A DNA stretch of 64,000 nt from Actinacidiphila guanduensis (GTDB taxonomy: Bacteria; Actinomycetota; Actinomycetes; Streptomycetales; Streptomycetaceae). The notes under the pieces were generated by a model. That model was not told where the DNA came from and did no database searches. It saw only the letters and a program-made list of their open reading frames with translations. Every line of letters starts with the position of its first letter. Positions within the stretch are counted from its first letter, which is position 1. Positions 39,422 through 42,637 of the stretch are shown one piece after another. The translations under genes were made by a program, and so were the position numbers. The stretch spans positions 1 through 64,000 of the forward strand of contig NZ_FNIE01000005.1 in the NCBI RefSeq assembly GCF_900103985.1, read 5' to 3'.

Positions 39422-40180
39422 ATGTCGCAGTGGCTGGTGCTGATCATCGCCATGGTGGCGGTGTGCGCGGTGGTGATCAGCGTGGTGGTGCTCAGGCAGC
39501 GCCGGATCGCCGCCGATGACGATCCGACCGAGACGCCCGACGTCATCGAGTACATGGTGATGATGATCGGGGTGGTGTACGCGATCGTGCTGGGTCTGGC
39601 GATCGCCGGCGTCTGGGAGGGCAGGGGCGGCGCGCAGGCCGATGTCCTCGCCGAGGCGCAGGCGCTGCACGAGGTGAAGGCCCGCGTGCAGGTCTACCCG
39701 GCGCCGGTGCGCGACCGGGTGCGGGCGGACGTGGACGCGTACGCGCGCTACGTCACCGACCGCGAGTGGCCGTACATGCGTGACCACGGCGAACTCTCGC
39801 CGCAGGGAACGAAGTTGCTCGCCCAGGTGCGCACCGACATCGAGAGCTACGACCCGAAGGACGACCTCGGCCAGCAGGCGTACCAGCCGCTGGTGGACGA
39901 GGTCGCCGCCGCCGACCAGGCCCGGGCCTCGCGCGGGCAGAGCGCCGGCGCCACGATGCCGGGCGTGGTGTGGTTCGGCCTGATCGTGGGCGCGCTGGTG
40001 ACCGTCGGGCTCATCTTCACCCTGCAGATCCGGCGCTCCGCACGGGAGTTGCTGCTCGCCGGGCTCTTCAGCGCGCTGATCGCCTTCCTGCTCTTCCTGA
40101 TCTGGGACCTCGACGCGCCCTTCGGGACCGGTCTGGCGGTGGGCGCGGGCGCGCTGAAGGACATCGTCCTGCGCCAGTGA
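39422..40180 (+). CDS. DUF4239 integral membrane protein
   Basis: A 252-aa protein with two N-terminal helices (residues 4-25 and 43-67), a soluble helical middle (about 70-175) and two C-terminal helices (about 183-225). This is the bestrophin-like topology of DUF4239; channel activity has not been shown for the family to my knowledge. ATG 39422 follows GAGGGGGAG. It is probably co-transcribed with the proline-rich exported protein. A 20-bp perfect hairpin terminates it. Confidence 0.83.
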   Translation: MSQWLVLIIAMVAVCAVVISVVVLRQRRIAADDDPTETPDVIEYMVMMIGVVYAIVLGLAIAGVWEGRGGAQADVLAEAQALHEVKARVQVYPAPVRDRVRADVDAYARYVTDREWPYMRDHGELSPQGTKLLAQVRTDIESYDPKDDLGQQAYQPLVDEVAAADQARASRGQSAGATMPGVVWFGLIVGALVTVGLIFTLQIRRSARELLLAGLFSALIAFLLFLIWDLDAPFGTGLAVGAGALKDIVLRQ

Positions 40181-40286: not shown

Positions 40287-41702
40287 TCAGCGCCAGTTGG
40301 CCACGTTCACGTTCTCCAGCACGCCCAGCGCGTCCGGCACCAGCACGGCCGCCGAGAAGTACGTGCTCACCAGGTAGCTGATGACGGCCTTCTCGTCGAT
40401 GCCCATGAAGCGGACGTTGAGCCCGGGCTCGTACTCGTCCGGAAGGCCGGTCTGGTTGAGGCCGATCACGCCCTGGTTGTCCTCGCCGGTGCGGATGGCG
40501 ATGATCGAGCTGGTGCGGGCCGGCGAGATCGGGATCTTGTTGCAGCTGAGGATCGGCACCCCGCGCCAGGCCGGCACGGTGGAGCCGAGTACCTCGACCG
40601 GGTCGGGGTAGACGCCCGCGCGCGTCCACTCGCGGCCGATCGCCGCGATCGTCTTCGGGTGGGCGAGCAGGTAGCGGGTGCCGCGGCGGCGGCTGATCAG
40701 CTCGTCCAGGTCGTCCGGCAGCGGCGGCCCCGCGTGCGGCTGGAGCCGCTGCTCGTACTCCGCGTTGTGCAGCAGCCCGAACTCCCGGTTGTTGATCAGC
40801 TCGTGCTCCTGGCGTTCGCGCAACGCCTCGACGGTGAGCTTGAGTTGCTGCTCGGTCTGGTTCATCGGCTCGTTGTAGAGGTCGGCCACCCGGCTGTGCA
40901 CCCGCAGTACCGTCTGGGCGACGCTCAGTTCGTACTCGCGGGGGTTGGCGTCGTAGTCGGCGAAGGTGGCCGGCAGGGCGGGCTCGCCGCTGTGGCCCGA
41001 GGCCAGCTCGATGTCCGCCTCACCGCGCCGGTTCGCCCGCTGCCTGGGCAGGGAGCGCACCGCCTCCAGGTGCCCGCGCAGCGCGTCGGAGACACCGAGC
41101 AGGGACGACAGGGCGGTACGCGGCAGGGCGAGCACCGTGGTGGGGGTGGCCGCCTTCGCGGTGTACTCCCAGGTGCCGTCCCCGTCGAGCAGCGCCTGCT
41201 CGCCGAAGTGGTCGCCGTCGGCCAGGACGCCGAGCCGGGTCGCCTCCCCGTACGGACCCTCGCCGAGCTTTTCGACCTTGCCGTGCGCCACCAGGTAGAC
41301 GGTGTCGGCGCTCTCGCCGGCGTGTGCGATGACCTCGCCCGTGTCGAACTCGCGCTGCACGAACCGGTCGGCGAGCGCGGTGAGCGCCTCGACGTTGCCG
41401 AACGAGCGCAGCGCCGCCAGCTCGCCCAGTTCCTGCGGGATGACCCGGACCTCGGAGCCGGTCTTGACGAACGTCACCCGCCCGTCGCCCACCGCGTAGC
41501 TGAGCCGCCGGTTCACCCGGTAGGTGCCCGAGTTCACCTGCACCCAGGGCAGCACCTTCAGCAGCCACCGCGAGGAGATGCCCTGCATCTGCGGGGCCGA
41601 CTTGGTGGTGGTGGCCAAGGTGCGCGCGGCGGCCGTGTCCAGGCTCGTACGCGCGTCCTGCGGATCGATGTGTGCGGCTTCCTGCCCCGCATCAACCGAC
41701 AT
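40287..41702 (-). CDS. Family 2B encapsulin nanocompartment shell protein with cyclic-nucleotide-binding insertion
   Basis: A 471-aa shell protein. Residues about 1-75 form the N-arm ([26 protein letters not shown]). Residues 85-205 are an inserted CNB domain, with a DHFGEQALL phosphate-binding cassette in which the usual cassette Arg is replaced (WEYTAKA). Residues 230-471 have the HK97-like fold ([31 protein letters not shown]). Family 2B shells usually sit beside terpene cyclase or polyprenyl transferase cargo genes; none is adjacent. ATG 41702 follows GGAAGGA. It is transcribed alone. Confidence 0.9.
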
Positions 41703-41950
41703 GTGCCGTCCTTCCCGTCATGGGTGATACGGCCGTCATTCTTTCCGCGGCCCGCGGGGCTGGCTATTGCCGAATCGAGTGAGATTACTTTCCGAAATAC
41801 GGGCAAGCAGCCGGCCCCCGCTCGGGCGCAAGACGGGCCGACGGCTCGCTGACCAGCGGGTACGCGAAAACGGCCCGGCGTGAGGGCCGGACCGCCGTGC
41901 GGAGGAGAAACGATTCGCGAGGGAGGAACCGGGGAGGAAGCAGCGCGTCG

Positions 41951-42637
41951 TCAGAGCGCTTCGACCACGGCGCCGCGCTCCGGCGGCGGGCCCTGCGGCG
42001 GGATCGTCAGCGGCACCGCCGCGTAGGCGGCCCCGGAGGCCAGCACCATGCGGCGCTCGCGGCGGAAGACGTACGCGGCGAACGCGCCGGCCGCCAGCAG
42101 CGCCAGGAAGGACATCAGGGTGCCGAACCAGCTCGCGCCCAGCCAGTGCCCGCCGACCCAGCCGAGGCCCACGCTGTAGGTGGCCCAGCAGACCCCGGCC
42201 AGCGCCGACCAGGGCAGGAACTCGCGCGGCTTGCGGCGGGCGGCGCCCGCGCCCAGGCTCACCACGCTGCGCCCGGCGGGCGCGAAGCGGGCGAGCACCA
42301 CCAGGGCGCCGCCGCCGCGGGCGAGCACCTGGCCGAGCCGTTCGTGAGCGGCGGCCAGCTTCCGGGACCGGGACACCCGGCGGTGGTACCACGCCCCGCC
42401 GCGCCAGGCCAGCCGGTACGCCAGCAGGTCGCCGACGCAGGAGGCCGCGGCCGCACAGAGCAGCAGCACGAGGATGTCGAGCAGGCCGTCGCGGGTGCCG
42501 CGGGAGCCGGTGGTGGCCGCGCTGATCACCAGGACGCCGCTGGGCAGGATCGGCAGGAAGACGTCGAGCAGCACCGACAGGCCCACCAGGATGTAGATCC
42601 ACGGCCATTCGAACAGGACGTCCAGCGTGTGCAGCAA
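41951..42637 (-). CDS. DedA/SNARE-associated family membrane protein
   Basis: A 228-aa membrane protein. It has re-entrant and transmembrane stretches (WIYILVGLSVLLDVFLPILPSGVLVI; LLDILVLLLCAAAASCVGDLLAY), the DedA motif with R in FAPAGRSVVSLGAGA, and two C-terminal helices. DedA proteins help move lipid carriers across the membrane. I prefer the TTG at 42637, which has AGGAGG 5 nt upstream and starts right at the family N-terminus; a TTG at 42694 would add 19 non-conserved residues. Confidence 0.82.
   Translation of the reverse strand: MLHTLDVLFEWPWIYILVGLSVLLDVFLPILPSGVLVISAATTGSRGTRDGLLDILVLLLCAAAASCVGDLLAYRLAWRGGAWYHRRVSRSRKLAAAHERLGQVLARGGGALVVLARFAPAGRSVVSLGAGAARRKPREFLPWSALAGVCWATYSVGLGWVGGHWLGASWFGTLMSFLALLAAGAFAAYVFRRERRMVLASGAAYAAVPLTIPPQGPPPERGAVVEAL

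Follow-up and report, generated by a model that had tools for sequence, protein, structure and literature searches.

The shell gene and its locus

The window, meaning the whole 64,000-nucleotide stretch of DNA analyzed in this study (C16:1-64000 of genome G000; Actinacidiphila, Streptomycetaceae), carries a family 2B encapsulin shell gene between two genes for membrane proteins. The following features were assigned (window coordinates, strand, description):

39422..40180, plus strand, DUF4239 bestrophin-like membrane protein, convergent with the shell gene (PF14023, 197 bits)
40287..41702, minus strand, family 2B encapsulin shell protein, 471 aa (NF041163, solved shells, orthologues)
40299..41048, minus strand, HK97/SrpI-like shell domain, residues 219-468 (PF19307, E 2.6e-134)
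41097..41354, minus strand, cyclic-nucleotide-binding (cNMP_binding) fold inserted in the E-loop, residues 117-202 (PF00027, E 7e-19)
41145..41219, minus strand, phosphate-binding cassette without Arg, Trp178 invariant (alignment of 37 homologues)
41710..41716, minus strand, likely ribosome-binding site GGGAAGG, kept in 13 Actinacidiphila loci
41762..41792, minus strand, upstream element AAAGTAATCTCACTCGATTCGGCAATAG, some 87 nt 5' of the start codon (conserved in 13 aligned Actinacidiphila loci)
41951..42637, minus strand, DedA/VTT membrane protein upstream of the shell gene (PF09335; syntenic in the genus)

The shell ORF is complete, begins with ATG and has a GC3 of 0.96. Its product matched the NF041163 model (family 2B encapsulin shell) over the full length, scoring 757 bits where the cut-off is 400, and its best solved relative was 9BHU (685 bits over the full length), the family 2B shell of Streptomyces griseus (PMC12407261). 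PF19307 together with NF041163 identifies the HK97/SrpI-like domain, and PF00027 identifies the cNMP-fold insert in the E-loop, which falls inside the NF041163 match. The sequence-only reading had described a 2B shell with an inserted cyclic-nucleotide-binding domain, flanked by DUF4239 and DedA genes and lacking an adjacent cargo gene, and this description was confirmed: no terpene cyclase, prenyl transferase (PT), cysteine desulfurase or xylulose kinase gene adjoins the shell gene in the window or in its orthologues. An adjacent cargo gene is a feature of the operon type and does not define the shell protein.

The nearest loci are the Actinacidiphila orthologues (80-87% identity). Compared with 12 orthologues, the shell gene showed a dN/dS of 0.19-0.29, and it is therefore regarded as live, with no decay. 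By part of the gene, dN was 0.13-0.23 in the insert versus 0.06-0.08 in the shell domain, the most constrained part. In the AlphaFold model (mean pLDDT 52.7) the insert was confident, at about 70-89, and the HK97 part was low; assembly into a closed T=1 shell would be expected from closely related solved shells. No second encapsulin was found in the 8.22-Mb, 99.99% complete genome, where the next match was a CRP-type regulator. With only one shell gene, the shell is thus a one-component shell, and the refuting case named in the sequence-only reading, a cargo gene next to a further encapsulin copy that supplies this shell, is excluded in G000.

The cassette of the insert contains no P-R-[AT]-A sequence, and all 37 aligned homologues carry Trp178 at that place; the Arg of the CRP/PKA-type cassette is absent. 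Because the homologues share Trp178, this loss is a property of the whole family and is not peculiar to the window gene. According to PMC12407261, which refers to earlier work, the insertion domain of the S. griseus shell binds no cyclic nucleotide. These observations bear out the doubt already raised about cyclic-nucleotide binding, and the outward cNMP-fold domains probably do not bind such ligands.

Upstream of the shell gene, the element was near-identical in 13/13 aligned Actinacidiphila loci, while the surrounding upstream DNA was otherwise divergent. This 28-nt element (AAAGTATTCTCACTCGAT-CGGCAATAG) also occurs in two further genomes (L147, L148). It is a probable promoter or operator, judging from this conservation. 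No match to it was found 5' of geosmin synthase or of other shells, and a scan for sigma-70 promoters and terminators around the shell gene returned nothing. Degenerate forms of the element precede the cargo-less shell copies of G018, G020 and G021 (L123, L125, L127).

Neighborhoods of related shells

Genes were called and clustered in 81 loci, comprising 80 related loci and the window. The shell lies with 2-MIB synthase (MIBS) and methyltransferase genes in 33 loci, with a PT gene in six, and with geosmin synthase in L015-L019 and L023. Two types lack a cargo gene: a shell-DUF4239 type in Kitasatospora and relatives (in Kitasatospora, DUF4239 shares the strand of the shell gene and follows it immediately), and the Actinacidiphila type (the window and L003-L014), in which DedA and shell genes are convergent with DUF4239. 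The DedA gene was present at 13/13 Actinacidiphila-type loci. DUF4239 occurred in 22/81 loci, in several shell clades and in differing orientations. It recurs near family 2B shells, and in places near geosmin synthase, at L020, L026, L036, L041, L047, L051, L068, L170 and L171; no mention of it as a shell neighbor was found in the 2021 encapsulin survey.

In the shell tree, all Actinacidiphila shells formed one clade (100/100). A family 2B shell was present in 35/35 Actinacidiphila genomes, and in 29 of the 35 a shell closely matched that of the window (at least 76% identity); in G008 and G025, a shell of 67% identity lies next to a DedA homologue. Nearly all members of the genus have the cargo-less shell at a window-type locus and a motif-tagged geosmin synthase elsewhere. 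G009 departs from this arrangement, its shell and geosmin synthase genes being adjacent; geosmin synthase likewise adjoins the shell in G121 and L015-L019 of the same genus, and the order shell-geosmin synthase-DUF4239 was seen in L023 (the same locus as G071) and in G128. Three genomes (G018, G020, G021) carry the cargo-less DedA/DUF4239 copy together with a close paralogue (76-79%) beside MIBS and methyltransferase genes (L123-L128). The MIBS beside this paralogue bears the same motif as geosmin synthase, so the window's shell clade has motif-bearing partners. In a different arrangement (L150/L213, G166), geosmin synthase adjoins a family 2 shell without the cNMP insert, of 2A-like architecture, unlike every other geosmin-synthase-linked shell seen.

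Geosmin synthase as candidate cargo

The smell of soil is made by geosmin synthase. The genome contains four PF19086 domains in three terpene-cyclase genes, one of which encodes the following protein on the contig of the shell gene, about 264 kb away:

G000:C16:305607-307901, geosmin synthase P0003, 765 aa, GS-like, with two terpene-cyclase domains

The linker between the two domains carries GGPTGLGTSAATILGSL, with the motif GPTGLGTSAA, and the C-terminus carries TPTGLGTAAARLPLRAR, with the motif TPTGLGTAAAR. Encapsulin-associated GS-like cyclases have a linker motif and a C-terminal motif with the consensus GPTGLGTSAAR, for which a targeting role was proposed (PMC8346489), and P0003 has GPTGLGTSAAR-like motifs at both places. 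It is the only motif-bearing terpene cyclase in the genome and has two copies; the other two cyclases (C19:44178, C21:608349), considered as cargo, have no motif. A DNA search for the motif core (TG-hydrophobic-GT-[SA]-A) gave three matches in the 8.2 Mb genome, two of them inside geosmin synthase; the third (C20:542292) falls in an unrelated ORF, where a membrane segment begins. The modelled relative from L023 has two confident helical domains, and the segments that hold the motif copies, one between these domains and the other after them, have pLDDT values under 50.

Against NF041168 (family 2 encapsulin cargo terpene cyclase), P0003 scored 1176.4 bits over positions 1-735 of 735, which is 24 bits below the cut-off of 1200. 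Shell-linked geosmin synthases scored 1196-1248, one of them likewise below the cut-off (1196), and Streptomyces ones without the tail scored 1131-1152. The C-tail motif was found in 33/34 Actinacidiphila geosmin synthases, with a mean of 0.23 for shuffled tails; in G028, the single exception, the copy is degenerate. It was also present in 19 of 20 geosmin synthases from other Actinomycete families, linked or unlinked, and, by a fixed pattern, in 20/40 from other Streptomycetaceae. Many Streptomyces enzymes have lost the tail copy and kept a degenerate linker copy, LTGPGTSAAD. Where shell genomes with a tail-less geosmin synthase were checked, they had their own PT or MIBS beside the shell.

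The sequence-only reading had proposed a cargo encoded elsewhere or a new one. The first part of this proposal now has a candidate in geosmin synthase and its two motif copies; the second found no support. The genome encodes six PF00266 proteins, and the examined one (C16:265141) was the only other enzyme found with an Ala/Pro-rich N-terminus. As a cysteine desulfurase cargo it was rejected: its N-terminal extension is not conserved in the genus. Across nine relatives the extension differs both in how long it is and in its sequence, and a conserved PLPVLGRDV stands at its end beside the core, so it is not a targeting domain. This desulfurase-like PLP enzyme (G000:C16:265141-266310; L241, L264) is encoded about 40 kb from geosmin synthase, and such an enzyme lies near geosmin synthase in nine relatives too.

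Co-occurrence of shell and geosmin synthase

Two samples were surveyed, of 150 Streptomycetaceae genomes and 395 Actinomycetes genomes. Among the Streptomycetaceae, geosmin synthase was found in 148/150 and the shell in 148/150, with both together in 148; the two genomes without either gene belong to different genera. Among the Actinomycetes, 94 of 395 genomes contained geosmin synthase, and 94/94 of these had a family 2 shell gene or fragment. This wording is needed because the shell of G166 has no insert and G393 has shell pieces only, on two contigs. At the search threshold the figure was 93/94, the apparent exception being G229, where part of a shell gene lies at the end of a contig, close to geosmin synthase. 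A 2B shell without geosmin synthase occurred in 10 genomes, and in 10/10 the shell lies beside MIBS and methyltransferase genes. These ten (L220-L229) belong to one genus (f15 g46), and in three sister genomes of that genus (G208, G304, G433) geosmin synthase is linked to the shell. Two genera with a shell only (g39, g54) were considered as counter-examples; their shells match the HK97 part only and, lacking the insert, are 2A-type, and they are therefore not counter-examples. With these counted as not 2B, Fisher's test gave 3e-24 by genus and about 4e-80 by genome, p-values that ignore shared ancestry and are descriptive. Since both genes are near-universal in Streptomycetaceae, the co-occurrence is phylogenetically confounded.

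Comparison with known systems

EshA resembles the window shell in its full-length family match (9BHU, 685 bits), its HK97 domain with an E-loop cNMP insert, and its degenerate cassette. EshA, however, is encoded in an operon with a terpene-cyclase neighbor, whereas the window shell has no adjacent cargo gene; an eshA-mibA-mibB operon was not found, and no MIBS is among the terpene-cyclase genes of the genome. EshB is presumably itself PT-linked. Like the shells of Streptomyces shell-PT loci, S. coelicolor EshB (SCO5249; PMC3878966) is a family 2B shell as in the window; at the Streptomyces loci a PT gene lies directly downstream, whereas the window shell has none. In the operons of GS-like terpene cyclases with family 2B shells (PMC8346489), the cyclases have the same pair of linker and C-terminal motifs as P0003; there the genes are adjacent, whereas here about 264 kb separates the cyclase from a cargo-less shell with DedA and DUF4239 neighbors. 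The two-component family 2B shells of S. lydicus (Sl-Enc1/Enc2, 9BJE/9BIX; PMC12407261) share the fold and the insert but have two shell components, in contrast to the single shell gene of the window's genome. In cyanobacteria and Deltaproteobacteria, geoA is followed by two cnb genes, with products of 471 and 469 aa annotated as Crp/Fnr regulators (PMC7251104); because these are the lengths of family 2B shells, the cnb proteins probably are such shells.

Discussion

We consider it likely that the window encodes a single-component family 2B encapsulin with cargo supplied in trans, for which the best candidate is the geosmin synthase encoded about 264 kb away. The cargo probably belongs to the known terpene-cyclase class and has been displaced from the locus, as the motif pair and the linked relatives suggest. 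Some findings count against geosmin synthase as the cargo. About half of the other Streptomycetaceae examined have no tail motif despite having a shell, P0003 scores under the NF041168 cut-off, no match to the upstream element of the shell was found upstream of geosmin synthase, and PT cargo carries no motif.

The last point bears on the idea that the shell packages another enzyme, such as the polyprenyl synthetase at G000:C27:47581, which seems unlikely. Shell-PT is the commonest arrangement among the Streptomycetaceae loci examined, and most Streptomyces shells adjoin a PT; moreover, PT cargo has no recognizable motif, none being conserved for targeting, and a PT acting in trans cannot be discriminated by its sequence. 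However, when compared with an encapsulin-linked PT, the two PTs of the genome reached only 235 and 94 bits; for shell-linked PTs from Streptomycetaceae the scores were 358-672. Both match standard chain-length synthases without a long N-terminal extension, and neither is linked to a window-type shell in any locus seen; the gene at G000:C27:47581 adjoins a squalene-hopene cyclase-like ORF. Less likely still is an empty or regulatory particle, a developmental protein like EshA/EshB whose role is independent of cargo. Of the other family 2B shells examined, almost all adjoin a cargo gene; every search for a motif-bearing terpene cyclase found one; and the cyclic-nucleotide cassette of the shell is degenerate. 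On the other side, EshA/EshB (S. coelicolor/S. venezuelae) have been described as putative cyclic-nucleotide-binding proteins of unclear function that are up-regulated in development (PMC6428758, PMC3878966), 2-MIB synthesis does not need eshA, and purifying selection acts on the window shell gene, which is preceded by a conserved element, probably a promoter.

The co-location of a close paralogue with MIBS and methyltransferase in G018, G020 and G021, together with the finding of no MIBS in the window's genome, would fit an original MIBS cargo lost by the lineage, the shell persisting with no cargo or a secondary one. This appears quite improbable, as a cargo-less shell is not expected to last genus-wide under a dN/dS of about 0.2, and besides the paralogue those genomes retain the DedA/DUF4239 copy that has no cargo gene; with both copies kept, the copies do different jobs. 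The least probable alternative is that the adjacent DUF4239 or DedA protein is the partner in a novel membrane-associated encapsulin system. DUF4239 does adjoin shells of several clades, and its same-strand position directly downstream in Kitasatospora favors such a link, but both proteins belong to integral membrane families, which makes them improbable contents of a shell lumen, and neither showed a disordered tail or a motif. The position of DUF4239 directly after geosmin synthase fits an accessory role and is compatible with geosmin synthase as the cargo.

For packaging of geosmin synthase, the following steps may be envisaged. The shell protomers would assemble into a T=1 particle and capture the enzyme through the two Gly/Pro/Ala motif copies in its disordered linker and C-tail. 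Farnesyl diphosphate and geosmin would cross the shell, perhaps through two-fold pores, which the outward cNMP-fold domains might gate. In the most economical reading, the ancestral locus would have been shell-geosmin synthase(-DUF4239); in the Actinacidiphila lineage, the geosmin synthase gene would then have moved away while its product was retained as shell cargo in trans. The window locus looks like a remnant of a shell-geosmin synthase-DUF4239 cluster. No paper tying an unlinked geosmin synthase to an encapsulin was found in an incomplete search of the literature.

Encapsulin cargo is usually assigned from gene adjacency, an approach that gives no account of shells without a neighboring cargo gene. 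In the present case, the motif, the linkage in relatives and the co-occurrence serve to assign a cargo to such an orphan, and the assignment implies that a single shell can receive its cargo from a gene far away. More tentatively, geosmin synthase may be a general client of family 2B encapsulins in Actinomycetes, even where the genes are distant. It is possible, though doubtful at this breadth, that a protein shell encloses geosmin synthesis, that one shell serves unlinked cargo, that DUF4239 is a third conserved component, and that the degenerate cNMP fold senses another ligand. If true, geosmin synthesis, which is ubiquitous in Streptomyces, would be placed inside a nanocompartment.
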